DNA of 32,612 bases from an uncultured Lachnospiraceae bacterium (GTDB taxonomy: Bacteria > Bacillota > Clostridia > Lachnospirales > Lachnospiraceae). Shown here one piece after another: positions 1,974 to 31,484 of the stretch. The position numbers and the translations under genes are program-made. The stretch lies in NCBI GenBank assembly GCA_948470755.1, contig CAOKPU010000036.1, positions 1 through 32,612 on the forward strand. Reading direction: 5' to 3'. The notes beneath the pieces are model-generated. The model worked only from the letters and a program-made list of their open reading frames with translations. It made no database searches and was not told where the DNA came from. Numbering within the stretch: the first letter of the stretch is position 1; every line of letters begins with the position of its first letter.

Positions 1974-3959
1974 ATGAATTCAGATGAAGAATATTTAGAT
2001 GATTTGCTTAATTCTCTTATGGATGGGGAAGAAGGGGCTGATCTTTTGCCGGAAGGAGAGGAAACAGCAGAAGGCTCGGAATTTGATGAAGGAATGATGC
2101 CGGCAGATTTAGGTTTTGGAGCAGATGAATTTATACCGGATGATTTCGTGACAGATGATTTTGTATCTGGAGATATGGAAGATCCGGATATAAAGCCTTT
2201 TACGGCTGTTGATCCGGAAGAAGCGTCGAGGGAAGGAAGTGACGTGGAGGAAAGCGTTGCAGAGGATGATTTTGCTCTGGAAGATTTTGTGACAGAGGAG
2301 CCGGATCTTGATAGTCTTGGGATCTCGGACTTTCATCTTGAGGAAGGGAATACGGAGGATGGGAGAATAGGTGAAGAAGGATTGATTTCACCGGATGATG
2401 TGGATGCAATGTTTGCAGCGGCGGATGCCGTTGTGTCCGATGGAGACGCTTTTCAGGCGGAGGAACCGGAAGAGAACGATATGTTGTCTTTTTTGGATAA
2501 TATGCCGGTAGAAGAAAATGAAGCGGAAGGTTCGCTAAGTCCTTCTAACCGGAATATAGAAGAAGAAGCCACTGGAGATATCAAAGAAGAAACTGATAAT
2601 AAAAAAGCCAAGAAAGAAAAAAGGGGTAAAAAAGAAAAGAAAGAGAAAAAACCTTTATTTGGCAGAAAGAAAAAGAATAAAAAGGAAGAAGAGCCTGAGG
2701 AAGAAACGGAAACTGTTGTTGACAGCGGAAGTATGGATGAAATACTGTTAGAAGATGAGGCAAAAAAAGAGGCGGAAGAGAAGCCAAAAAGCTTTTTTAG
2801 CAGGATGATAGAATTTCTGACGGAATCGGATGAAGAGGAGGAAGAAAGTCAGGCAGACGGTCTGGAGCCTTCGGATGAAAACAAAAATATATTGAAGGAA
2901 CTGGATGATGAAGATAAAAAGAAAAAGAAGAAAAAGGTAAAAGGCAAAAAGGGAGAGGACGGGGAGGAAAAAGGGAAACCCAAGAAGGAAAAAAAGAAAA
3001 AAGAAAAGAAGAAAAAGGAAAAAGCGGAAGCCTCGGATGAAGCAGGGATTCCTCATGAAGCGAAAAAAGGAAAAAGGGTTTCCATAAAGAGCATGATTGT
3101 GATAGCCGGCCTTTGTCTTACTGTAACAGCAATGATTATTGTAATGTGCAGTATTGTTCCGGAATTTTTTGATAAAAGGAAGGCAAGGGATGCATTTTAT
3201 GAATCGGATTACATAAAATCATATGAATTGCTGTATGGTAAAAAATTAGATGAAAATGACGAGATGATATACAATAAATCCAAAACCATATTGGAAATTA
3301 AGAGGAAACTGGACTCTTACCACAATTATTTGGGAATGGGTAAAGAGATACAGGCTTTAGATGCACTTATGTCGGGAATACAAGATTACCCTGAGATTTT
3401 AATAAAAGCGGAGGAATATAGGGTAGTTCAGGAAGTGAACGCGGTTTATGAAACCATCTTAAATATTTTGAATGATAAATATTATCTTTCCGAAGGAGTA
3501 GCCAAAGCAATTGTAGAATATGACGATGTGACTTATACAAGAAAATTGGAATCTCTTGTCAATGGCACCCCGTTTTTAGAGCCGGTAAAGGCGGAAGATC
3601 CCGCTATATCGGAAGACATCCTTCCGGAAGAACGTGCTTTGATGGAACAGGAATCCCCGGAAGAAACGGAAGAAAGCCTGAATAAGGATGATCCCGATTT
3701 GTCAGAGCAAAATGTGAATGAAGAGGACGCAGAAGAATTGCCAATGGAAAATGCGGACGGCGATATAGCGGAGGATGAGGCTGTACAAGAGCAGGATACG
3801 GAAGAAGAACAATCTCCTGATGAGGAGCCGGCATCAGTTCCGGAAGAACCGTTTTCAACGGGAGAAGATGTCTCTTCATGGACAGGGGAATCCGGAGGCC
3901 AAGGGGAACAGATTCAAGGCATCCGTCAGCCGATAGATATTCAAATACACGGAAACTGA
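1974..3959 (+). CDS. Acidic/lysine-rich single-pass membrane protein of unknown function
   Basis: I do not recognise a family for this 661-aa protein. Residues 1 to about 200 are extremely rich in Asp/Glu. About 200-370 alternate Lys/Glu blocks with runs such as KKKKKVKGKK and KKEKKKKEKKKKEK. One hydrophobic segment (MIVIAGLCLTVTAMIIVMCS, residues about 374-393) is followed by about 150 residues of mostly helical-looking sequence containing a short repeat-like stretch (ARDAFYESDYIKSYELLYGK). The tail is a Glu/Pro/Ser-rich linker. With the Lys-rich block on the N-terminal side, the positive-inside rule puts the N-terminus in the cytoplasm and the C-terminal part outside. I chose ATG 1974, preceded by GAGGGTG, over the in-frame GTG at 1962. 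It ends 22 nt before hisH, so it may be co-transcribed with the histidine genes, although no functional link is obvious. Confidence 0.75.
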   Translation: MNSDEEYLDDLLNSLMDGEEGADLLPEGEETAEGSEFDEGMMPADLGFGADEFIPDDFVTDDFVSGDMEDPDIKPFTAVDPEEASREGSDVEESVAEDDFALEDFVTEEPDLDSLGISDFHLEEGNTEDGRIGEEGLISPDDVDAMFAAADAVVSDGDAFQAEEPEENDMLSFLDNMPVEENEAEGSLSPSNRNIEEEATGDIKEETDNKKAKKEKRGKKEKKEKKPLFGRKKKNKKEEEPEEETETVVDSGSMDEILLEDEAKKEAEEKPKSFFSRMIEFLTESDEEEEESQADGLEPSDENKNILKELDDEDKKKKKKKVKGKKGEDGEEKGKPKKEKKKKEKKKKEKAEASDEAGIPHEAKKGKRVSIKSMIVIAGLCLTVTAMIIVMCSIVPEFFDKRKARDAFYESDYIKSYELLYGKKLDENDEMIYNKSKTILEIKRKLDSYHNYLGMGKEIQALDALMSGIQDYPEILIKAEEYRVVQEVNAVYETILNILNDKYYLSEGVAKAIVEYDDVTYTRKLESLVNGTPFLEPVKAEDPAISEDILPEERALMEQESPEETEESLNKDDPDLSEQNVNEEDAEELPMENADGDIAEDEAVQEQDTEEEQSPDEEPASVPEEPFSTGEDVSSWTGESGGQGEQIQGIRQPIDIQIHGN

Positions 3960-3981
3960 TAGCAGCAGAAAGTGACAGCAT

Positions 3982-4602
3982 ATGATAGCAATAATTGATT
4001 ACGATGCGGGTAACATAAAAAGTGTGGAAAAAGCCCTTCTTTTTCTGGGAGAGGAAACCTGTGTGACGCGGGAAAGAGAAAAAATCCTAAGTGCCGACAA
4101 AGTAATTTTGCCAGGGGTCGGTTCTTTTGGCGGGGCTATGGAAAAAATCCGGGGTTATGGGCTAGAGGCTGTAATAAAAGAGGCCATTAATCAGGGAATG
4201 CCGTTCCTTGGTATTTGTTTGGGGCTTCAGCTTCTTTTTGAACGTAGCGATGAGTGTCCTGAAGCGAAGGGGCTGGGCATCTTAAAGGGCAGTATTTTGA
4301 GGATTCCGGAAAAGGAAGGGGGGAAAGTCCCCCAGATTGGATGGAATTCTCTAAAGTATCCTAATAAAGGCAGATTGTTTTCCGGAATCCCGGAAGAGCC
4401 GTATGTATATTTTGTCCATTCCTATTATTTGAAGGCGGAAGAAGAGGAAATAGTCACAGCCACAACGGAATACAATACATTAATCCATGCATCGGTAGAA
4501 AAAGGAAATATTTTTGCATGTCAGTTCCATCCGGAAAAAAGCTCCGGTACAGGTTTGCATATCCTCCGTAATTTTATCCAAATACAAAAGGAGGGAAAAT
4601 AA
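3982..4602 (+). CDS. hisH: Imidazole glycerol phosphate synthase, glutaminase subunit HisH
   Basis: HisH (206 aa) hydrolyses glutamine and passes ammonia to HisF in the fifth step of histidine biosynthesis, where PRFAR is converted to imidazole glycerol phosphate and AICAR. The class I glutamine amidotransferase features are present: N-terminal IAIIDYDAGNIKSV, ILPGVGSFG, the nucleophile Cys in FLGICLGLQLLFE (about residue 80), and the His/Glu of the triad in CQFHPEKSSG near the C-terminus. The length is typical. The gene abuts hisF (stop TAA directly followed by ATG), so the two subunits are translationally linked. The rest of the his operon is not in the window. Confidence 0.97.
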   Translation: MIAIIDYDAGNIKSVEKALLFLGEETCVTREREKILSADKVILPGVGSFGGAMEKIRGYGLEAVIKEAINQGMPFLGICLGLQLLFERSDECPEAKGLGILKGSILRIPEKEGGKVPQIGWNSLKYPNKGRLFSGIPEEPYVYFVHSYYLKAEEEEIVTATTEYNTLIHASVEKGNIFACQFHPEKSSGTGLHILRNFIQIQKEGK

Positions 4603-5386: not shown

Positions 5387-6064
5387 ATGGCAATGATTCA
5401 GAATGACTGGCTGGATGCGTTGAGGCCGGAATTTTCCAAGCCATATTATAGACAGCTTTTTGAATTTGTACAAAGCGAGTACAGCAAAGCGGTCATATAT
5501 CCACCGGCAGACGATATTTTCAATGCCTTTCACTTTACTCCGTTAAGCAAAGTAAAGGTATTGCTGTTGGGGCAGGATCCATATCATAATGTACATCAGG
5601 CCCATGGCTTGAGTTTTTCCGTATTGCCGGATCAAAAAGATATCCCTCCTTCTTTGCAAAATATTTATCAGGAACTGCATGATGATTTGGGATGCCGGAT
5701 ACCGAACAATGGCTTTTTGAAAAAATGGGCGGATCAGGGAGTATTGCTGTTAAATACGGTTTTGACGGTCAGGGCCCATCAGGCTAACTCGCATCAGGGC
5801 AAAGGTTGGGAAATGTTTACGGATGCGGTGATAGAAGCCGTAAATGCCCAAGATCGTCCTATTGTATATTTTTTATGGGGAAGGCCGGCGCAAAACAAAG
5901 CATCCATGCTGACGAATCAGGAACATTTAATTTTGAAGGCGCCGCATCCCAGCCCACTATCCGCATACCGAGGATTTTTTGGGTGCAGGCATTTTAGCAA
6001 AGCGAATGAATTTTTGTCGGAACATGGGGTAGAGCCTGTGGATTGGCAGATTGATGATATTTAA
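5387..6064 (+). CDS. ung: Uracil-DNA glycosylase, family 1
   Basis: Ung (225 aa) removes uracil from DNA as the first step of base excision repair. The water-activating motif is intact (LLLGQDPYHN, with a second helix QAHGLSFSV). The DNA-intercalation loop motif HPSPLSAYRGFFGCRHF is present near the C-terminus. Length and motif spacing are normal. ATG 5387 is preferred to ATG 5393 because AAAGGGG lies 9 nt upstream. It is the last gene before a strong terminator, so hisH-hisF-ung probably form the end of one transcription unit, an arrangement without an obvious functional reason. Confidence 0.96.
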   Translation: MAMIQNDWLDALRPEFSKPYYRQLFEFVQSEYSKAVIYPPADDIFNAFHFTPLSKVKVLLLGQDPYHNVHQAHGLSFSVLPDQKDIPPSLQNIYQELHDDLGCRIPNNGFLKKWADQGVLLLNTVLTVRAHQANSHQGKGWEMFTDAVIEAVNAQDRPIVYFLWGRPAQNKASMLTNQEHLILKAPHPSPLSAYRGFFGCRHFSKANEFLSEHGVEPVDWQIDDI

Positions 6065-8289: not shown

Positions 8290-8372
8290 GCCGGCGTGTC
8301 GGAATGGCAGACGAGGCAGACTCAAAATCTGTTGTGGGCAACCACGTATGGGTTCAAGTCCCATCGCCGGCA
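8290..8372 (+). tRNA. tRNA-Leu(CAA)
   Basis: The sequence folds as a class II tRNA of 83 nt without an encoded CCA. The acceptor stem is GCCGGCG (8290-8296) with CGCCGGC (8365-8371) and discriminator A. The anticodon loop is CTCAAAA, giving anticodon CAA (reads UUG, Leu). A long variable arm, TGTGGGCAACCACG, and a T-arm with ATGGG/CCCAT around TTCAAGT are clear. The long variable arm supports Leu. It has its own promoter and terminator. Confidence 0.96.
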
Positions 8373-8461: not shown

Positions 8462-8575
8462 ATGATAGAACAAGAATGCAAAAAAGCAGTTTGCAGATGG
8501 ATAAAATGCATAATAGAACCCGGCAAAAGAAAGGAAAATGCAACAATAAATACAAAAGACATCTTATTTACTTGA
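8462..8575 (+). CDS. Possible 37-aa basic peptide (uncertain)
   Basis: An ATG preceded by AGGAAGAGAGGAC opens a 37-codon frame (beginning MIEQECKKAVCRW). It is Lys-rich with three Cys and ends inside the -35 box of the next promoter. The ribosome binding site is good and the stretch lies between the tRNA terminator and the RAT promoter. No promoter of its own is apparent and I recognise no homologue. It may be chance; conservation of the frame in relatives would decide. Confidence 0.2.
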   Translation: MIEQECKKAVCRWIKCIIEPGKRKENATINTKDILFT

Positions 8576-8600
8576 CAGAAATTGTATAAATTGTTATTAT
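8572..8600 (+). promoter_or_regulatory. Consensus-like promoter of the ptsH leader transcript
   Basis: TTGACA (8572-8577), a 17-nt spacer and TATTAT (8595-8600) predict a transcript starting near 8607, about 36 nt before the RAT element and 500 nt before ptsH. Confidence 0.88.
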
Positions 8601-8642
8601 ATACCCAGATAGTGAGCCGGCGGCATATTAAAGGAAAGCATG

Positions 8643-8670
8643 GGATTGTTACTGAAAAGCAGATAAAACC
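8643..8670 (+). promoter_or_regulatory. Ribonucleic antiterminator (RAT) of the LicT/BglG/SacY type
   Basis: The 28-nt element reads GGATTGTTACTG (8643-8654), AAAA, then GCAGATAAAACC (8659-8670). Known RATs of the bgl and lic leaders have the same first half and a GCAGGCAAAACC-like second half. The RNA would form an imperfect hairpin bound by the N-terminal domain of a PRD-containing antiterminator. Its last three bases (ACC) are shared with the left arm of the following terminator, so the two structures exclude each other as in described bgl, sac and lic leaders. The element matches the LicT/SacY class better than the GlcT class. The loop is one base shorter and GG is replaced by GA. The antiterminator gene is not in the window. 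Confidence 0.85.
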
Positions 8671-8727
8671 GGATTTTATAAGTTAATCATGAGAGGGGGA
8701 GATTAATTTATAAAGTGTGGTTTTTTT
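8668..8727 (+). terminator. RAT-overlapping leader terminator
   Basis: The left arm 8668-8688 pairs with 8701-8721. The core ATAAGTTAATC / GATTAATTTAT pairs with one G-U, and ACC / GGT closes the base below an internal mismatch. The 12-nt loop is ATGAGAGGGGGA and a run of seven T (8721-8727) follows. Opening this hairpin through RAT binding would let transcription proceed toward ptsH. Confidence 0.83.
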
Positions 8728-9106
8728 ACTACATATGATTTTATATACATAAAGTTGTCCATAAATATTAAGTTCATAAATATTATGTTCATAAGTATTA
8801 TGTTCATAAGTATTATGTTCATAAGTATTATGTTCATAAATGTTAAGTTCATAAGGTACTTATGGGATTGTCTGGAAGCAGTTGTATATCGCCCGGAAGG
8901 AAGTATGAAAGAGGGTAAATTAATCAATAATAATAATGTTTCGCCTATAAACAGCCGCGGAAGAAAAGGGCTTATGCTTGGAAGGCGCAATAAAGAGAGG
9001 CGGGAAGGACAGTTGTCAAGCAATTGTGACAGATGCGGAAAACGGTAGTAATGGAAAGTTGCTATAGAATCCTTGGAAAAAGGAAAAAAGAAAGGAGAAT
9101 TATATT
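8728..9106 (+). other. Long untranslated leader between the RAT terminator and ptsH
   Basis: These 379 nt contain no convincing gene. They hold six 15-bp tandem repeats (8761-8850), a partial second copy of the RAT sequence (8864-8881), and, near the end, the ptsH ribosome binding site AAAGGAG. A frame beginning at a TTG at 8755 runs through the repeats but has no ribosome binding site. The stretch could be leader RNA, or the remains of a gene once placed behind the RAT. Confidence 0.6.
8761..8850 (+). repeat. Six tandem 15-bp AT-rich repeats
   Basis: Six consecutive units fit ATAARTATTAWGTTC. Units 3-5 (8791-8835) are identical (ATAAGTATTATGTTC). Unit 2 differs from them at one base, and units 1 and 6 at two or three. 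A broken seventh copy begins at 8851 (ATAAGGTAC). There are no unique spacers, so this is not a CRISPR array. Confidence 0.95.
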
Positions 9107-9364
9107 ATGCAGGAGTTCAAGTACACAATCAAAGACGAGTTAGGAATTCATGCAAGGCCTGCAGGTCTGCTGGTTAAATTAGCGGCACCTTTTAAAAGTA
9201 CGATTACGGTGGATACAGGGTCAAAGAAGGCGGATGCAAAGAAGATCATGGCCCTTATGGGCGCAGGTGCAAAAAAAGGCACAACGGTGACATGCAGGGC
9301 GGAAGGACCTGATGAGGCAGAAGCGATTGCAGCTTTGAAAAAGTTCTTTGAAGAGAATTTATAG
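9107..9364 (+). CDS. ptsH: HPr phosphocarrier protein with Lys in place of Ser46
   Basis: HPr (85 aa) carries phosphate from enzyme I to the sugar-specific PTS enzymes in the cytoplasm. The active site is intact: His15 and Arg17 in GIHARPAG. Aligning without gaps to Bacillus HPr places Lys46 (AKKIMALMG) where HPr kinase normally phosphorylates Ser46 (LKSIMGVMS). The transport function should be kept but the CcpA co-repressor form should not be made. The ribosome binding site is AAAGGAG. The gene lies about 500 nt behind a RAT-controlled promoter and before nagB, whose product handles amino-sugar phosphates. Other ptsH copies could exist outside the window. Confidence 0.93.
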   Translation: MQEFKYTIKDELGIHARPAGLLVKLAAPFKSTITVDTGSKKADAKKIMALMGAGAKKGTTVTCRAEGPDEAEAIAALKKFFEENL

Positions 9365-9540: not shown

Positions 9541-10269
9541 ATGAGGATAATTAAAACGAAAGATTACAAGGATATGAGCAGAAAAGCTGCCAATATTATT
9601 TCTGCCCAAGTAATTACGAAACCGGACTGCGTATTGGGGCTTGCGACAGGATCTACGCCGATTGGGACTTATGAGCAGTTGGTGGAATGGTTTGAAAAAG
9701 GTGATCTTGATTTTTCAAGGGTAACTTCAGTGAATCTCGATGAATATAAAGGGCTTACGAAGGATAATGACCAAAGCTACTATTATTTTATGAATGAACA
9801 TCTTTTTAGCAAGGTAAACATAGATAAAGCCAATACCCATCTTCCTGACGGGACCGAACCGGACAGCGATAAGGCGTGTTCTGACTATAATGAAGTGATT
9901 TCATCAGTAGGAGGCATTGATCTGCAGCTTTTGGGGCTTGGCCATAACGGCCATATAGGGTTTAATGAACCGGCAGACGAATTTATTCCGGAAACACATT
10001 GCGTGGATCTTACCCCTTCTACGATTGAAGCAAATAAGAGATTTTTTGCTTCTTACGACGATGTGCCGAAGCAGGCATATACGATGGGGATTAAGACGAT
10101 CATGCAGGCGAAAGCAGTGCTTGTTGTTGTCAGTGGGGAAGATAAGGCGGCAATTGTAAGGGATGCTTTCTTTGGTCCTATTACTCCAAGGGTACAGGCG
10201 TCTATCCTTCAGCTTCATCCTAATGTAACAGTAGTGGCGGATGAAGCGGCGTTATCCCTTGTAAATTAA
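9541..10269 (+). CDS. nagB: Glucosamine-6-phosphate deaminase
   Basis: NagB (242 aa) converts glucosamine-6-phosphate to fructose-6-phosphate and ammonia, linking amino-sugar use to glycolysis. Visible motifs are GLATGSTPIGTYEQL (phosphate loop), SVNLDEYKGL (catalytic Asp region), and LGLGHNGHIGFNEP, with the active-site His and neighbouring residues. The length fits the Gram-positive form, which lacks the C-terminal allosteric extension of the E. coli enzyme. The start follows AGGAG by 5 nt. No nagA or nag regulator is adjacent. Being next to ptsH suggests a shared link to PTS import of amino sugars. Confidence 0.96.
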   Translation: MRIIKTKDYKDMSRKAANIISAQVITKPDCVLGLATGSTPIGTYEQLVEWFEKGDLDFSRVTSVNLDEYKGLTKDNDQSYYYFMNEHLFSKVNIDKANTHLPDGTEPDSDKACSDYNEVISSVGGIDLQLLGLGHNGHIGFNEPADEFIPETHCVDLTPSTIEANKRFFASYDDVPKQAYTMGIKTIMQAKAVLVVVSGEDKAAIVRDAFFGPITPRVQASILQLHPNVTVVADEAALSLVN

Positions 10270-19020: not shown

Positions 19021-19100
19021 GCAATATATAGTGCTGTAACTGTGATTTCATTGTACCAATACCCCAACCTATAGGGCAATTGGAAATATGGAGGAATTAT

Positions 19101-21662
19101 ATGAAGAAAATAAACTGGAAAAAGGCGGTTTGTGTAGCTTTATTATTTGTTTTGGGGCTGCAGGCCGCAGGCTGCGGCGGTTCCGCAACAGAAAGCACAA
19201 CAGCGGCAAAGGAGTTTGTTTATGTGCCGGAATATCAGAAACTGAAAACGGAAGATGGGGTGGATGAGGTTTTTGTAGCAGGGGATATGCTTTATTACAA
19301 AGCCGGTTCTTACGATGAATCATCCCAAAGGTATAAAGAATATTTGGCAAAGCTGAAAATCGGTGAAGATACGCCGGAGACGATGCCGTTGGATTTTGGG
19401 GAGGACAGCAGCATTCAAAGAATAAAGGTGGATGCGGAAGGCAATGTTTTTGTATTGGTGAGTACATATCTCTACGGAGAAGACGGTGAGGCGGCATCTG
19501 CCGAAGAGACGGAGCCGGAAAGTGGGGAAGCGGACGAAGAAAGCGATGCGGAAAGCGGACAGGCTGCAAAAGGGGAAGATGAGCAAGGCGGGCAGGCTGC
19601 GGAAGGGGAAGATGGGCAGGACGGACAGGATCCGGAGGGTGAGACTGCAAAAGAAGAGGATCATGAAACGGAAGCCTCGGAAGAACTTTCCTATGAAGTG
19701 GTGGAAGAAAGCGGCGGTGGAGCGCATTCTTACTTTGTCGGAGGAAGCGGCGGCACGGCGGTGTTCCCGGGTTCCTCCGGGGACGAGGAAAGCGGGGTTC
19801 CCACCAGGATCATGGAAATATGCAGATTATCTGTAGACGGCGATCTGCTTTCCCGGACGGATATTACCGAATCGATGGGCGGGAATGCGGATGTCTATAT
19901 ACAGGATATGGAGACTGATAAAGATGGGAATCTTTATATTAGCCTGGATCAGGAGCTGCTTGTTTTTGACAAGGATGGGAAAGAAGTTTGCAGGATAGAG
20001 ACGACTAACTGGATCCATGATATTTTTTCAACGAAAGATGGCGAAGTATATGCCGCTTATTACGGCGATATGGATATCGAAGTCCATCCGGTTGACATCA
20101 AAGCAAAAGCAATGGGGGATGCGGAAAAAAATATAATAGTAGGAAATAACGGCGGATACCGGTTTATGCCCGGAACGGATACGGATCTTATATTCTGTGC
20201 GGACAATAATCTATATACGTATTCTTTTGGGGATGAGTCGCCGGAGAAAATATTGAATTGGATAGACTGCGATATTGATAAGGATGATGTCCGTTCTTTT
20301 ACCATGTTGGAAGATGGCAGGGTATTAGCGATGCTTTCCGGCTGGGACGATGAAAGTGGCGTAAGCACCACGGAGCTGGTGTATTTAACCAAAAAGAAGG
20401 GATCGGAGGTTGCAGAAAAGAAGATCCTTACTTATGGGACCCTCTATCTGGATTATTTTGTCCGGAAGGAAGTTATTGAATTTAACAGGACGAATCCGGA
20501 ATACCGCATCGAAGTAAAAGAGTATATTACGGAAAATACGGCGGAAGGCTACGGCTCCGGACAGGAACAGATGAATACGGATATCATTAGCGGGAAAGGC
20601 CCTGACATTATCGAACTTTCCGGCAGCAATATGCAGATGTATGCGGCGAAAGGGATATTAGAGGATCTGTATCCCTATATGGATGCGGATGCAGAAATCA
20701 ATAAGGAAGATTATCTGGAGAGCGTCAGGAAAGCGTTTGAAATAGACGGGAAGCTATATACGATGCCGTCGCGGTTTTACATCAATACGGTGCTGGCAAA
20801 GACGTCGGAAGTAGGGGAGCGGCAAAGCATCACTTTGGAAGAACTCATGGAAATTATGGACAGGCTTCCGGAAAACGCCCAGCTTTATGAATACGCTACA
20901 AAAAGTTCTATTTTAATGTATAATATTATGATGAACATGGATCAATATGTGGATTGGGGGACCGGGGAATGTAAATTCAGCAGCGATGAATTTATCCGTG
21001 CACTGGAATTTGCCAATCGGTTTGATACGGAAGCTTATTATGATCAGAATGGTTTGAGCAGGCCGGCAAAAATTAAACAAGGGCTTTTGCTCATGACGGA
21101 AACATCGATCAGTTCCGTGGAAGAGTATATTTTATATGAAGCTATGTTCCGTGAACCGATTACTTTTGTGGGGTATCCGACGACAAAGGACAACGGCTCT
21201 TTCTTAAGCCATGATGGTTCCATATTGGCCATGAATGCAAAATCAAAGAATAAGGATGGGGTATGGCAGTTTATCAGGCAGCATCTGACAAAGGAGGCAC
21301 AGGAAAGCGATACAGGAAGAGGCGGTGGTTTTCCGGTGATGGAGTCGGCTTTGGAGAAGCAATTTGAGAAGGCGATGAAGGAAGAATATTACGAGGATGT
21401 AGACGGCAGCAAGAAGAGGTCGGAAAAGACTACTTGGGGATATGATGATTTTTCGGTGAAAATCTATGCTGCTAAAGATTATGAAATAGAGACGATCCGA
21501 AACTTGATTGAGGGTACGGATACGTTGTATCAGTATGATCAGAAAATGATGGACATTATTTCAGAAGAGGCCAACGCTTATTTTGAAGGCCAGAAAAATG
21601 CAAAAGAAGTAGCGGATATTATCCAGAACCGTATACAGGTTTATGTCAATGAGAATCGGTAA
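19101..21662 (+). CDS. Lipoprotein 1: propeller-like domain fused to a solute-binding domain
   Basis: The 853-aa product has a type II signal peptide (LLFVLGLQAAGC, lipidated Cys25), so it should be anchored on the outer face of the membrane. Residues about 35-435 contain repeated short beta motifs with DGxxY/V patterns (DKDGNLYISLDQELLVFDKD; STKDGEVYAAYYG), suggesting a beta-propeller. This region is interrupted by a Glu/Gly/Gln/Ser-rich low-complexity stretch (about 126-230). From about 440 on it resembles a family 1 extracellular solute-binding protein (LTYGTLYLDYFVRKEVIEFN, MNTDIISGKGPDIIEL, FEIDGKLYTMPSRF). It ends NAKEVADIIQNRIQVYVNEN, nearly identical to lipoprotein 3. ATG 19101 follows GGAGGAATTAT. 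The ligand is unknown. Confidence 0.85.
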   Translation: MKKINWKKAVCVALLFVLGLQAAGCGGSATESTTAAKEFVYVPEYQKLKTEDGVDEVFVAGDMLYYKAGSYDESSQRYKEYLAKLKIGEDTPETMPLDFGEDSSIQRIKVDAEGNVFVLVSTYLYGEDGEAASAEETEPESGEADEESDAESGQAAKGEDEQGGQAAEGEDGQDGQDPEGETAKEEDHETEASEELSYEVVEESGGGAHSYFVGGSGGTAVFPGSSGDEESGVPTRIMEICRLSVDGDLLSRTDITESMGGNADVYIQDMETDKDGNLYISLDQELLVFDKDGKEVCRIETTNWIHDIFSTKDGEVYAAYYGDMDIEVHPVDIKAKAMGDAEKNIIVGNNGGYRFMPGTDTDLIFCADNNLYTYSFGDESPEKILNWIDCDIDKDDVRSFTMLEDGRVLAMLSGWDDESGVSTTELVYLTKKKGSEVAEKKILTYGTLYLDYFVRKEVIEFNRTNPEYRIEVKEYITENTAEGYGSGQEQMNTDIISGKGPDIIELSGSNMQMYAAKGILEDLYPYMDADAEINKEDYLESVRKAFEIDGKLYTMPSRFYINTVLAKTSEVGERQSITLEELMEIMDRLPENAQLYEYATKSSILMYNIMMNMDQYVDWGTGECKFSSDEFIRALEFANRFDTEAYYDQNGLSRPAKIKQGLLLMTETSISSVEEYILYEAMFREPITFVGYPTTKDNGSFLSHDGSILAMNAKSKNKDGVWQFIRQHLTKEAQESDTGRGGGFPVMESALEKQFEKAMKEEYYEDVDGSKKRSEKTTWGYDDFSVKIYAAKDYEIETIRNLIEGTDTLYQYDQKMMDIISEEANAYFEGQKNAKEVADIIQNRIQVYVNENR

Positions 21663-21676
21663 GAAAGGAGAATGGG

Positions 21677-23926
21677 ATGAAGATTGGGAAGTGGTTTATG
21701 GCAGGAATGGCGTCCGTATTTGTTTTTGCATTGGCGGGCTGCGGGGAAAAGGGACAGGAGGCTCCTGAGGCGGCAAAAAGCGAAAGTGGGAATGAGGGCG
21801 GTTTTGTCTACGTGGCAGAGTATGAAGAATTGAAGGAAGACGGATATGTGACGGGTAATGTAACGATCAGCAATGATGGACATGTTATTTTTTCCGTAAG
21901 TAAAGAGGGCGGGGAAATGAAACTGATTTCCAGGAATACGGATGGAGAAAAGGCGGAGATTCCCTTAGATTTGGAAGAAAATACTTATATTGCGGCAATC
22001 GGTAAAGATATGGAAGGGAATTTCCTGTTAGGGCTTGTAACGTACAGCGGTTCTTTGAATGAACCGGACAGTGTCCCGGCAAATGTTATGGTGCGGAAAA
22101 TAGCGGCGGACGGAACGGTTTTGGAAGATACCGATATGGGGAAAGCTTTGTTAAATGTTCCGGAATTTTATATACAGGATTTGATTGAAGATAAAGAAGG
22201 GTATTATTATATTTGCGCAGGGCAGAAAGTATTTGTATTAAAGCCCGGCGGGGAATTGTATTTTGAAGTGGACGCCGGAAGTTATATCAGCAATATGTTC
22301 AGCATCAAAGGGGAAAAAACAGTGGTTGCCAATTATGGGGACATGGGCTGGGAAATGCGGGAAGTGGATTTGGCCGGAAAGGCATTAAAATCCCTGGATG
22401 CTCCTGTTACCTTTGATTATGGCACATATCAAAGCGGAGGGGAATATGCGGATATTCTTTATACTTTAGGAACGAAGCTTTATTCCTATAATCTGGGGGA
22501 AAGTGAACCGAAGGAAATCTTAAACTGGGTTGACAGCGATATTGACAGCGGCAATCTGAGGTCGTTTACGGTTCTTGAAGATGGGAGAGTGGCGGCGATT
22601 TCCTCGGACTGGAGTTCGGCGGAAAGCAATACGGAACTGGCGGTCCTTACCAAAAAGGATAGATCAGAAGTTTCGGAAAAGATCGTTCTTACTTATGGAA
22701 CGGCTTATATCCCCTATTTTGTGAAGACGGACGTGGTTGCTTTTAATAAGCAGAGCGATAAATACCGTATTGAAATTAAGGAATATGGGGAAGGGGATAA
22801 AGATTATGAGACTATGGTAAAACTTTGGACGGCGGATATATCCAGCGGCAATGGGCCGGATATCATCGATATGTATTATTGTCCGGTGGGTTTGCAGGAA
22901 TTGGTGTCTATGGGGGTTGTGGAAGACTTAAACCCTTATCTGGAAGCAGATGCGGAGATAAACCGGGAGGATTATGTTGACAATGCAATGAAAGCCTATG
23001 AGCTGGACGGGAAATTATATGCGATTATGCGGTGCTTTGGTTTATCTACCGTTATTGGAAAGACATCTGATGTGGGAGAGGGGACGTCATGGACGTTGGA
23101 CGATGTTTTTGCGCTGATGGAATCAAAAGGCAAGGATGTGGAGCTTTTTGAGTATACGACCAAATATAATGCCCTGCAGATGATGCTTCAGACAAACGGG
23201 GATTTGTTTGTAGATGAAAACGGTGTATGTGATTTCCAAAATGAGGAATTTATAAAGATCCTGGAATTCGCCAACCGGTTTCCGAAAGAAGTGCAATACG
23301 ATCCGAACGCGCCCAGTGATACTGAAAAAATAAGGGATGGAAAATTGCTTCTTTTAAAGGAGTCGGTGACTTCGGTACAGCAGTATCAACTTTATGAAGC
23401 GAAGTTTGGGGAACCTATTAATATGATCGGTTATCCTACTTCGGGAGAGAGCGGCATTATGCTGACTCCTAACGGTACCGCGGCGGCTATGAATATAAAT
23501 TCTAAAAATAAAGAAGGGGTCTGGGAATTCTTCAAGTTTTTAATGACGGAAGAAAGGCAGGAGAACCTGCAGTCCGCAAATGCCGGCTTCCCCATCTTAC
23601 GCAGCGCGTTGGAAAAGCAGTTTGAAGAAGATATGGAACCGGAGTATTATGAAGATACGGACGGAACCCAGAAAGAAATGCCGAAAGGCGTATGGACAAC
23701 CGGATCCACAGGAGAGGTAACTGTGGAGGTCTTTGCGGCCACGCAGGAACAGGTGGATAAGATAAAGCAGATGATTGAAAAGGCAGGGAATACGGAGATG
23801 GATTCCAAAATGCTGGATATTATTATGGAAGAAGCCCAAAGTTATTTTGACGGGCAGAAAAGTGCAGAGGATGTGGCGGGGTTAATACAGAACCGGATGC
23901 AGATTTATATCAGCGAAAAGAGATAG
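21677..23926 (+). CDS. Lipoprotein 2: propeller-like domain fused to a solute-binding domain
   Basis: This 749-aa paralogue of lipoprotein 1 starts 14 nt after it behind AAAGGAG. The signal peptide ends in FALAGC, with lipidated Cys22. Residues about 35-330 are propeller-like, with LNWVDSDIDSGNLRSFTVLE matching LNWIDCDIDKDDVRSFTMLE in lipoprotein 1. The solute-binding part begins near residue 334 (LTYGTAYIPYFVKTDVVAFN) and includes TADISSGNGPDIIDMYY and YELDGKLYAIMRCFG. It lacks the low-complexity insertion. Its position directly before the permease genes makes it the likeliest substrate-delivering protein of the set. Confidence 0.87.
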   Translation: MKIGKWFMAGMASVFVFALAGCGEKGQEAPEAAKSESGNEGGFVYVAEYEELKEDGYVTGNVTISNDGHVIFSVSKEGGEMKLISRNTDGEKAEIPLDLEENTYIAAIGKDMEGNFLLGLVTYSGSLNEPDSVPANVMVRKIAADGTVLEDTDMGKALLNVPEFYIQDLIEDKEGYYYICAGQKVFVLKPGGELYFEVDAGSYISNMFSIKGEKTVVANYGDMGWEMREVDLAGKALKSLDAPVTFDYGTYQSGGEYADILYTLGTKLYSYNLGESEPKEILNWVDSDIDSGNLRSFTVLEDGRVAAISSDWSSAESNTELAVLTKKDRSEVSEKIVLTYGTAYIPYFVKTDVVAFNKQSDKYRIEIKEYGEGDKDYETMVKLWTADISSGNGPDIIDMYYCPVGLQELVSMGVVEDLNPYLEADAEINREDYVDNAMKAYELDGKLYAIMRCFGLSTVIGKTSDVGEGTSWTLDDVFALMESKGKDVELFEYTTKYNALQMMLQTNGDLFVDENGVCDFQNEEFIKILEFANRFPKEVQYDPNAPSDTEKIRDGKLLLLKESVTSVQQYQLYEAKFGEPINMIGYPTSGESGIMLTPNGTAAAMNINSKNKEGVWEFFKFLMTEERQENLQSANAGFPILRSALEKQFEEDMEPEYYEDTDGTQKEMPKGVWTTGSTGEVTVEVFAATQEQVDKIKQMIEKAGNTEMDSKMLDIIMEEAQSYFDGQKSAEDVAGLIQNRMQIYISEKR

Positions 23927-28122: not shown

Positions 28123-29214
28123 ATGAATAAAATCAAAGATTTTGTAAGAAGCCTTTCGTGGAGACAGATAACGCTGGCAGCCATTATCTTGTTTTGCCTG
28201 GCGATATGGGGAGGTTTGACAGCCTTTTCGGTTGTAAAGAAAAACGGCCTTCCAGACCAGACGGCGGCAAAGCGATGGTCCAAGGAAGGCAATACCGCGC
28301 AGATAAGCTGTTTTTTTACAGAAAGTACGGAGATGGATAAAGATAAAATCAGGTCTTTTGAGCATGAATTAGATACGCTTTTAAAAGAATCTTCTATTAC
28401 GGCCCCGAACGAACATGCGAGGCTGTGGGCGGATGCTTACAGCGCATCCGGGAAGATCACCTTATCTTCCGGGAAGACATCATTGGCGGACGCTTCCGCC
28501 ATAGGGATCGGAGGGGATTTTTTCCTGTTCCATCCGGTCCATCTTCTTCAAGGCGCTTATTTTTCAGGGAATGATCTGATGTATGATAAAGTGATCGTGG
28601 ATGAAGAGGCTGCCTGGCAGTTGTTCGGTTCCAATGACGTAGTCGGTATGCAGTTGACGATTGGCGGCGTACCGCATTATATTGCCGGAGTGATCAGGCG
28701 GGAAGAGGGCAGGTTCCAGGAGGCGGCGGGGCTAGATAAGACAGTGGTTTATGTTTCCTATGAGACTTTGGAGCAATTTGGGTCAACGGAGGGGATCAGC
28801 AGTTATGAAGTGGTAATGCCGAACCCGGTGAAGAACTTTGCCTATAACAGCGTTAAGGAAAAATTCGGTTTGGATGAAAACCGTATGTGGGTGGTAGAGA
28901 ATTCAGCGCGCTTTGGTATAGAGGGGCTGCTTACAGTTATTGCTGATTTTGGCACGCGTTCTATGAACGCGAGGGCGATCCAATACCCTTATTGGGAGAA
29001 TGTGGCCCGGGGCTGGGAAGATGTACTCGCCATTGTCCTGGCGCTTCAGATCTTGTTTTTGCTCATCCCGTCGGCAATCGCGGCGGCGGCATTGATAATT
29101 GTATGGAAACGGAAACAATGGACATGGAAAGACGTAGGGCATTTTTTGATAAGATGCCGGGATAGGGTTTCGGATAGGTTCCATAGTGAGAAAAATAAGT
29201 GGAAATATTTTTAG
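28123..29214 (+). CDS. MacB-periplasmic-core-like two-segment membrane protein
   Basis: The 363-aa protein has one membrane segment near the N-terminus (LAAIILFCLAIWGGLTAFSV, about residues 17-36). A long extracytoplasmic domain follows, in which GGDFFLFHPVHLLQGAYFSG and DEEAAWQLFGSNDVVGMQL recall the MacB_PCD domain of MacB/FtsX-type ABC permeases. A second segment lies near the C-terminus (LALQILFLLIPSAIAAAALI). The four-helix FtsX permease part is missing, so it cannot be a complete MacB-type permease by itself. Its position after the adaptor gene suggests that the two cooperate. The family assignment is tentative. Confidence 0.65.
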   Translation: MNKIKDFVRSLSWRQITLAAIILFCLAIWGGLTAFSVVKKNGLPDQTAAKRWSKEGNTAQISCFFTESTEMDKDKIRSFEHELDTLLKESSITAPNEHARLWADAYSASGKITLSSGKTSLADASAIGIGGDFFLFHPVHLLQGAYFSGNDLMYDKVIVDEEAAWQLFGSNDVVGMQLTIGGVPHYIAGVIRREEGRFQEAAGLDKTVVYVSYETLEQFGSTEGISSYEVVMPNPVKNFAYNSVKEKFGLDENRMWVVENSARFGIEGLLTVIADFGTRSMNARAIQYPYWENVARGWEDVLAIVLALQILFLLIPSAIAAAALIIVWKRKQWTWKDVGHFLIRCRDRVSDRFHSEKNKWKYF

Positions 29215-29243
29215 GAGCAAAAGGCAACGTAGGGAAAGCGGGG

Positions 29244-31484
29244 ATGAGGATGGATAGGAAGAAATTTTGGGGTTCTTTCTTTTTGTGGTGCATGGTTTTA
29301 TTTTTGGCCGGATGCGGCAAAAAGGGTGGTACAAGCGCCGTTACGGGTTCCAAAGATTATGTATACAAACAGGAAGAAATAAAAATAGAAGGAGCAGGGG
29401 AACAGGCTAATTTCAGCGATTTTATCATTAAGAATGGCCGGATATATTTAACCAGTATGGAATGGAAGGAGGAAGGCTGCCGGGTCAGCCTGGTGCATAT
29501 TGGCCTGGATGGGACGGATGAACAGTCTTTTTTTGTGGATCTGAAGGAAAACACATACTTATCATGGATGAACCCGGATGGAGAGGGGAATTTTTATATG
29601 ATTTATGATGAGTATATTGAGGAAGAAGAAGGAAACTGGAGGGATGATTATTATCTGATCAAATTAGACAGCACCGGACAGGAAATCTTCAGGCAGCCTT
29701 TAAGTGAAGGAGTTCAGGATTATTGGGTAAACTGGATGCGGCTGTTGGAGGATGGAAGGGTTGCGGTATCGGGTCAGGGAGGGATTTCTTTTTTTGACGC
29801 CGAAGGGAAAGCGGCGGGGCATGTAGAGCTTGCGGAGGAAGCGGGCGGCAGCGTCTATTTCTTACAGGATGGAAGGATAATCATGAATTCCTATAATGAG
29901 AAGACGGGCAGATCTATCCTGCGTGAACTTAACCCGGATACAGGAGTGTTGTCCGGAGAGTATATACTTCCGGGTAATTCCGGTAATTATAGTTTTTATC
30001 CGGGAGCGGAAAGCGATTTTTTGTTAATAGGAAACGGCGGAGTCTATTCCTATAACCTGGGGGATGAGGAAATAAAGAAAATCATGGATTTTATTGATTC
30101 CGACATGAGTACAGGATATATTTACAATATATGCGATGTCAATGAAAAAGAATTCTACGGGATGATGAATTCTGAATTGACCGGCCGTGACGTGTTGATG
30201 AAATTTACGAAAGTAGATCCGAAGGATGTGGCGGATAAAACGGTATTGACGCTGGCATGTAATGACTTAGACTGGCAGGTAAGGAAACATGTGGTGGAAT
30301 TCAACAAGACGGATCCGGAATATAGGATACAGATTACGGATTATTCCCAGTATACTACGGAGGAGGACTATTCGGCGGGTATTACCCGGCTGAATACGGA
30401 TATTGTTTCGGGAAAAATGCCGGATATCCTTGTACTGAATGATTATCTTCCTTTGGAAAGCTATATGGCAAAAGGGCTGTTTGAAGATTTATATCCTTAT
30501 ATTGATAAGGACGGCGGACTGAAGCGGGAAGATTATTTTCCCAATGTATTAAAAGCATATGAAAATGACGGGAAGCTGTACCGGCTGGTTCCCAAATTCA
30601 CCATTTATACGGTGGCAGGGAAGACTGCGGATGTAGGCCAAAGGACAGGGTGGACGCTTGAGGATTTGCGTGAAGTGATGGCTTCTAAACCGGACGGAAT
30701 GGAAGTTTTTTCGGAAATGACAAGGGAAAGTATGCTGGAATATAGCATCCAGATGACAGGAAGCCAGTTTATTGACTGGGAAAGCGGCAAATGCGGATTT
30801 GATTCGGAAGAGTTTATTTCTCTTTTGGAGTTTATCAAAGAGTTTCCGGAAACGCTGCCCGAGGATTATTATGACAGTTCTTTGCGGGGAGACTGGAATA
30901 GCTGGTTCCGTGAGGGGAAGGTCCTGTTGGAGCGGATGTCTTTATACGGTTTTTCTTCCTACAATTACACAAAAAAAGGGACCTTTGGGGAAGAGATCAC
31001 GTTGATTGGTTTTCCTTCCGGGAACGGAAAAGGTTCTTCGATTGATGCGGAGCTGGAATTTGCGATGTCATCCAAATCCAAGAATAAAGACGGGGTATGG
31101 AAATTCTTAAGGTATTTTTTATCCGATGAATTCCAGGGGCAGACGGAGTATGAATGGCCTGTCAGCATGAAGCAAGTGGATGTTTTGGCGCAGAAGGCAA
31201 AAAAAAGGCCGTCTTATGAAGATGAGAACGGTAATCTGGTGGAATATGACGAAGTTTATTATCTAAATGGGGAAGAGGTGCCAATCAGCCCGATGACGCA
31301 GGAGGAAGTGGATGAAGTAATCGCTTTCGTACAATCGGTGGATCAGTTAAATTCCACAAACCAGGATTTGATCAATATTATTTTGGAAGAGGCGGCGCCG
31401 TATTTTGCAGGGCAGAAAAATGCAAAAGAGGTGGCGGACATTATCCAGAACAGGGTGCAGATTTATGTCAATGAGAACAGATGA
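29244..31484 (+). CDS. Lipoprotein 3: propeller-like domain fused to a solute-binding domain
   Basis: The 746-aa third paralogue has a lipobox VLFLAGC (lipidated Cys24 from this start). Residues about 35-325 contain propeller-like repeats (KNGRIYLTSMEW; LEDGRVAVSGQGGISFFDAEG). The solute-binding domain starts near 331 (LTLACNDLDWQVRKHVVEFN) and includes LNTDIVSGKMPDILVLND and YENDGKLYRLVPKF. The C-terminus NAKEVADIIQNRVQIYVNEN is almost the same as in lipoprotein 1. I chose ATG 29244 (ATG 29250 is also possible). A start at 29199 would overlap the previous gene and push the signal peptide inward. It overlaps tcdA by 20 nt. Confidence 0.85.
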   Translation: MRMDRKKFWGSFFLWCMVLFLAGCGKKGGTSAVTGSKDYVYKQEEIKIEGAGEQANFSDFIIKNGRIYLTSMEWKEEGCRVSLVHIGLDGTDEQSFFVDLKENTYLSWMNPDGEGNFYMIYDEYIEEEEGNWRDDYYLIKLDSTGQEIFRQPLSEGVQDYWVNWMRLLEDGRVAVSGQGGISFFDAEGKAAGHVELAEEAGGSVYFLQDGRIIMNSYNEKTGRSILRELNPDTGVLSGEYILPGNSGNYSFYPGAESDFLLIGNGGVYSYNLGDEEIKKIMDFIDSDMSTGYIYNICDVNEKEFYGMMNSELTGRDVLMKFTKVDPKDVADKTVLTLACNDLDWQVRKHVVEFNKTDPEYRIQITDYSQYTTEEDYSAGITRLNTDIVSGKMPDILVLNDYLPLESYMAKGLFEDLYPYIDKDGGLKREDYFPNVLKAYENDGKLYRLVPKFTIYTVAGKTADVGQRTGWTLEDLREVMASKPDGMEVFSEMTRESMLEYSIQMTGSQFIDWESGKCGFDSEEFISLLEFIKEFPETLPEDYYDSSLRGDWNSWFREGKVLLERMSLYGFSSYNYTKKGTFGEEITLIGFPSGNGKGSSIDAELEFAMSSKSKNKDGVWKFLRYFLSDEFQGQTEYEWPVSMKQVDVLAQKAKKRPSYEDENGNLVEYDEVYYLNGEEVPISPMTQEEVDEVIAFVQSVDQLNSTNQDLINIILEEAAPYFAGQKNAKEVADIIQNRVQIYVNENR

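Follow-up and report, generated by a model that had tools for sequence, protein, structure and literature searches.

A gut bacterium appears to keep the partly decayed RNA switch of a lost sugar-transport operon before a retained ptsH

As a rule, a RAT switch is studied together with the regulator that is encoded beside it. In Bacillus subtilis, a RAT and a terminator precede the PTS operon ptsGHI and respond to a PRD-type antiterminator, GlcT, whose read-through is described in a passage of PMC12445079 as having little effect on ptsHI, which have a promoter of their own. For the bgl leaders of Clostridium acetobutylicum, the RATs are given as GGATTGTTACTG-N6/7-CAGGCGAGACC with the 3' end forming part of the terminator, and deletion of the RAT is described as raising read-through (passages of PMC12628678). 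RATs have also been described in enterococci, overlapping a terminator upstream of nagY and hylA (PMC9981650, which cites a 2015 genome survey of RAT sites), and in Streptococcus mutans, upstream of bglP (PMC1489936). Among the papers searched, judged by title and abstract opening, we recognized none on a RAT leader directly before ptsH; one of them (PMC4706839) contains both "ribonucleic antiterminator" and "ptsH".

Here, we analyzed a window of 32,612 nucleotides from an uncultured Lachnospiraceae bacterium in which ptsH stands behind such a leader. The locus shares with the B. subtilis system the arrangement of RAT and terminator before a PTS operon with ptsH as well as the PRD type of antiterminator, but differs in that the RAT is of the LicT class and the regulator, encoded next door in B. 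subtilis, is gone. Compared with the C. acetobutylicum bgl leaders, whose cognate regulator is described as present and tested, CAGGC is CAGAT and it is ptsH that lies behind the RAT. It looks as if this gut bacterium keeps, before a retained ptsH, the RNA switch of a sugar-transport operon that has otherwise been lost, a switch that is real and looks partly decayed.

The leader and the interval before ptsH

The original prediction had read this region as a near-consensus promoter, a RAT about 36 nt after the transcription start and a terminator whose left arm overlaps the RAT, and all three parts are borne out. The promoter is of the sigma-70 type (TTGACA-N17-TATTAT with a TG before the -10 box; 8572-8600, forward strand), agrees with the consensus at 11/12 positions and ranks first of the 15 promoter-like hits found on both strands between 7800 and 10000, a region for which shuffled sequences average 6.9 hits (sd 2.4). 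The 41 nt starting at CTTGACA are identical in one related genome (G004) and differ by one base in another (G015). Past the predicted start near 8607 follows the LicT-class RAT GGATTGTTACTGAAAAGCAGATAAAACC (8643-8670, forward strand): It shows the two half-sites and two internal loops of an element of about 28-30 nt, eight pairs can form, and the pattern TTGTNACTN(4-8)CAGNNNAAACC has this single match in the whole 3.01 Mb genome, with none in the backwards control. A covariance model trained on the leaders of nine relatives, with the window sequence excluded (R1), scores the window leader at 77.2 bits (E 8.4e-14, genome-wide); at the Rfam gathering thresholds, the whole window gives two tRNAs and no entry for the leader. 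In terms of folding energy the RAT hairpin is weak (33 nt with flanks: -4.5 kcal/mol, z -1.26, 22/200 shuffles as good; RAT alone: -0.9 kcal/mol versus -2.7 to -5.2 in eight relatives, G001 left out), so that it is recognized by its sequence and its relatedness to other leaders and not by energy. The AT-rich intrinsic terminator (8667-8727, forward strand; stem 8667-8722, T-run 8721-8727) reaches -20.1 kcal/mol (z -4.69), a value equaled by 0/200 shuffles. It begins inside the 3' end of the RAT, with AACC common to both, and since the start of the stem falls within the RAT the two structures are mutually exclusive.

The claim that ptsH is the first gene downstream holds for the architecture, but the interval proves to contain a tandem array and a frame that is a remnant of glcT, the label we give to the antiterminator gene found at this locus in relatives. 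On the forward strand the order is tRNA (8290-8372), promoter, RAT, terminator, tandem array, 47-codon frame, and ptsH (9107-9364). The array, 6.6 copies of a 15-bp unit (8756-8854, forward strand), lies within a stretch (8734-8904) that gave no alignment above shuffles with the four relatives compared, and contains three weak promoter-like hexamer pairs (TTCATA-17-TATTAT, 9/12 each), another such hit being located at 8905-8934. The 47-codon frame (8905-9048, forward strand) begins as a degenerate glcT 5' end that is recognizable over 8905-8955: It is 80% identical to the glcT start of G001 over 55 nt (E 9e-9), with each of four relatives the alignment of the 8905-9048 stretch beats 200/200 shuffles, two of these alignments spanning 8905-8955 and the other two a shorter part, and BLASTP carries the likeness to residue 26 (E 5e-5; nine sequences, no composition correction). 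The encoded peptide has no Pfam CAT_RBD match at E up to 0.1 and is devoid of the GxGFxK stretch of the relatives' glcT, and a search of 8957-9068 for crr or later glcT remains gave nothing above shuffles with four relatives. With no alignment past 8957 and no CAT domain, glcT thus survives as a degenerate start, and this start at 8905-8955 is all that is left of a CAT-PRD antiterminator beside the leader. On the 3' side of ptsH, a nagB-like ORF (9541-10269) is followed by a small ORF and a polA-like ORF; apart from ptsH, gene names in the window were assigned by reading of the translations. Farther along the window, three large ORFs (19080-21662, 21677-23926, and 29199-31484) have, by eye, closely similar C-termini (QNR.Q.Y...) and are apparent paralogs, two of which adjoin permease-like ORFs.

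Origin of the leader and loss of the surrounding genes

HPr was sought in 16 genomes of the genus, including the window's own (G000). Nine of these (G001, G002, G003, G007, G008, G009, G011, G012, and G014; loci L063-L071) carry a full operon at the locus in the order promoter-RAT-terminator-glcT-crr-ptsH-ptsG-nagB-nagA-polA, where ptsG denotes EIICB; in G001, Pfam assigns CAT_RBD and PRD domains to glcT, EIIA to crr, and EIIC and EIIB to ptsG. The HPr orthologs of the nine are 74-89% identical to the window HPr. Moreover, a promoter-like site, a RAT, and a terminator precede glcT in 9/9 cases, the terminator helix of these relatives covaries (5 pairs changed on both sides versus 1.2 in shuffles), and the window aligns to G003 over 300 nt (69%, E 3e-42). 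The window agrees with the genus operon in its locus, its promoter, its RAT and terminator, and an orthologous HPr, whereas glcT, crr, ptsG, and, farther downstream, nagA are absent from the window locus and the window RAT carries two substitutions. Judged by this kinship, the window leader almost certainly descends from the leader of the glcT-crr-ptsH-ptsG operon, which makes the parallel to a GlcT-type PTS operon closer than had been claimed. A de novo gain of the RAT before ptsH was considered and rejected, as the window matches the relatives' operon leaders both in its leader and in the glcT start. As for conservation of the RAT in relatives, the lack of which would by the original prediction count against it, the outcome is mixed: R1 finds no RAT before ptsH in G004 and G015, the two relatives without these genes, but does find it before glcT in the nine operon genomes. 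In G005 and G006, R1 likewise places a leader immediately before a more divergent glcT, downstream of which lies an HPr gene with 54-59% identity. Two side observations concern the operons themselves: The crr frame in G012 (L063, about 3600-4099) looks interrupted near its start (a 133-aa ORF versus 160-162 aa), possibly by a sequencing error, and an inverted repeat of the type TAGTAAA...TTTACTA was seen by eye just 5' of ptsH in five of the nine (L064, L065, L066, L070, and L071).

The genome-wide ortholog search covered glcT and ptsG; the absence of crr and nagA refers to the locus. In the G000 draft, which is 92.5% complete, no glcT ortholog was found: The best full-length match to G001 glcT is 40% identical, whereas the remaining eight operon genomes reach 68-95% and the two genomes with a more divergent glcT, G005 and G006, 51-52%. 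The best matches were 40% in G004, 35% in G015, and 38% in G013 (65% complete), and G010 (83% complete) gave no match. A ptsG ortholog was equally missing from the G000 draft (best match 39%, plus 43% over part of the length; 71-97% in the other eight carriers), with EIICB matches of 65% in G005, 62-67% in two pieces in G006, and 39% in both G004 and G015. In a draft genome, a glcT moved to another place might go unnoticed.

G004 and G015 resemble the window in their decarboxylase-like upstream ORF, tRNA, promoter, ptsH, and nagB, and they too are without glcT, crr, ptsG, and nagA at the locus. In both, ptsH begins about 145 nt past the -35 box, and neither a RAT nor a terminator was found before it. 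A tree built from nagB, HPr, and the PolA N-terminus places G004 and G015 as sisters (99/98) that join G001-G003 (86/87), with G000 outside; the loss, mapped as a label, needs two changes on this tree, whereas one change suffices in 2% of 200 bootstrap trees. By topology, which is moderately supported, the losses in G000 and in G004/G015 would mean independent events. The joint absence of the same four genes speaks for one common loss, and since the starred branches of the tree are by themselves compatible with one origin, the topology is not decisive.

What the leader and its HPr may still do

The RAT of the nine relatives invariably reads GCAGGCAAAACC, that of the window GCAGATAAAACC: AT replaces GC at positions 22 and 23 of alignment A3, a change unique to the window by which one G-C pair becomes G-U and one loop base is altered. 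Each of the eight RAT pairs remains possible, and 21 of the 22 pairs found in the relatives' terminator helix are retained; one G-U is new, and there is one G-G mismatch. As both substituted positions are kept in 9/9 relatives, a tuned sugar switch most likely no longer works. Counted over the leader columns that are invariant in the nine relatives, 4/44 are changed in the window; in a leave-one-out control the relatives themselves changed 0 to 6 columns (6/50 in G008, 5/49 in G011). Within the RAT, they changed at most 1/24, compared with 2/23 in the window. For the remains of glcT, the counts are 3/26 over codons 1-17 (p = 1.0 versus the leader), 5/12 over codons 18-26, where the alignment is less certain (p = 0.016), and 8/38 over codons 1-26 (p = 0.21). 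The frequency of change in the leader is thus close to that in codons 1-17 of a dead gene, and this comparison does not support constraint on the leader; the faster change of codons 18-26 would fit some constraint. As a whole, the column counts appear compatible both with and without constraint.

The ptsH gene itself looks to be conserved by selection: Compared with G004, 31 of its 39 differences fall on third codon positions and four residues are changed. Its product is recognized as HPr by PF00381 (105 bits) and TIGR01003 (91 bits), and the alignment shows His15 present and a lysine at the position of Ser46, the site of HPr kinase, so that only one of the two sites is in place, as in the G001 ortholog. 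Altogether, the window genome encodes four HPr-like proteins: Besides the window HPr, one has both His15 and Ser46 (L074, 7449-7709, minus strand), one has His15 and a lysine (L074, at 5121), and one has Ser46 without His15 (L075, at 4380). The best EI match of the genome is located away from the ptsH locus (C49). As a different HPr of the genome has both sites, the anatomy does not compel a self-limiting loop through the window HPr. A working feedback loop, in which HPr would control its own synthesis through the antiterminator, had been proposed in the original prediction; it finds no support, because the draft yielded no orthologs of the neighboring antiterminator and EII, the RAT departs from all nine relatives at two positions, and the HPr concerned is one of four such proteins and carries lysine where Ser46 would be.

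The reading that we favor, with somewhat better than even confidence, is that the leader is a regulatory relic acting mainly as an attenuator. Synteny and sequence show that the ancestral leader stayed while crr, ptsG, and all of glcT except its start were lost and ptsH was kept. Transcription would still start at the conserved promoter, near 8607, RNA polymerase would then meet a terminator whose dedicated antiterminator is apparently no longer encoded, and most transcripts would end near 8727, the window HPr being made through incomplete termination. For its expression, ptsH would rely on leaky read-through, on a paralogous LicT as helper, or on a more recent promoter. Against a mere relic stand the strong terminator and the eight possible RAT pairs, which leave room for function, the two intact relatives (G008 and G011) whose leaders, taken as a whole, have changed to the extent seen in the window, and the five PRD antiterminators with a CAT_RBD domain that persist in the genome.

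These five proteins are what makes a second reading conceivable, namely that a paralogous antiterminator, for instance the beta-glucoside LicT of L013, has captured the orphaned leader and that the level of a Ser46-less HPr would now be set by one sugar class. We regard such a capture as rather unlikely, at roughly one chance in a handful. The L013 licT RAT has the identical 5' half GGATTGTTACTG and scores 22.8 bits with R1, all eight pairs of the window RAT can form, and ptsH, being intact and conserved, is presumably expressed despite the terminator. Yet the GC of nine relatives is AT in the window RAT, the L013 RAT differs from it on the 3' side too, and the leader columns are altered about as often as the dead glcT start. 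Although a RAT-like element and a terminator precede each of the five antiterminator operons by eye (that of L014 being divergent), R1 at E up to 1 recovers only the leaders of L013, L015, and L017; with no match at L014 and L016 and a weak one at L017, the RAT types differ within the genome. Less probable still, and in our view improbable, is a newer promoter past the terminator, perhaps in the 15-bp array, that would drive ptsH and leave the old leader inert. The array hits and the one at 8905-8934 could provide it, the stretch is without match to the four relatives aligned, and B. subtilis ptsHI are described as having a promoter of their own (passage of PMC12445079), but the hits are weak, AT-rich, and derived from the repeat, and the identity of the old promoter in G004 suggests its retention for use. 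The 47-codon frame could also encode a working PRD-less RNA-binding peptide that holds the switch always open, which we consider very improbable: The frame is open and has a start codon, and another locus of the family (L147) shows that such an arrangement can exist, but the window peptide lacks the CAT_RBD match that the L147 peptide achieves with 83 bits as well as the GxGFxK stretch, and alignments beyond 8957 do not rise above shuffles. Isolated CAT domains have been reported to be active in the laboratory.

Antiterminators beside general PTS genes in the family

We examined the best 80 of at least 341 HPr loci in the family, among which L076-L079 represent G002, G003, G008, and G011. In 19 of these 80, a CAT-domain frame lies upstream on the same strand, and 15/19 have a same-strand R1 match at E up to 0.01. 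The CAT frame is long in 18/19; the exception is L147 (5628-6258 in G455:C180), where a RAT and a terminator are followed by a 63-aa CAT domain without PRDs (PF03123, 83 bits), a ptsH that overlaps its stop, and the start of ptsI. L147 is a separate case, yet the nearest natural counterpart of the window: Both have RAT, terminator, shortened antiterminator gene, and ptsH in this order, but L147 has an intact CAT domain and ptsI next in line, whereas the fragment of the window is degenerate. Among the matches listed for the L147 genome (G455) there is no other CAT protein, and the locus can be put forward as a candidate for a natural PRD-less antiterminator. Its peptide was matched in 113/397 sampled family genomes, the shortest CAT frame among the matches listed from this sample being 147 aa. 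PRD-less antiterminators as a widespread class were rejected, as 6/28 genomes of the L147 genus match and the short form occurs only in L147's own.

Several further loci of the family deserve a record. L191 (G135) has a 147-aa frame with a CAT match beside an EII-like gene, which may be a truncated or a frameshifted antiterminator. In L138, where gene names are by reading, one PTS cluster contains two RAT-like sites (4237-4290 and 5628-5706), one before an EIIA-like gene and the other after the antiterminator and before a short EIIB-like ORF, ptsH, and ptsI. In L199 and L200 (G456 and G464), a RAT-like site and a full-length antiterminator stand before a ptsI-like gene, and among the ORFs listed in between none of 70 aa or more is HPr-like. 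EI genes occur in antiterminator operons in L134, L138, and L199.

Within one genus, the locus of the window exists in three states: the full operon in 9/16 genomes, the leader without its regulator in the window, and the promoter without the leader in two genomes. These three states make it a testable case for the fate of an RNA switch after the loss of its protein and for a possible takeover by a paralog. If capture by a paralogous LicT were true, it would mean regulatory rewiring through the loss of genes around ptsH and not through the gain of a new site. With HPr and also EI genes inside antiterminator operons of the family, general components of the PTS may be under sugar-specific RNA control.
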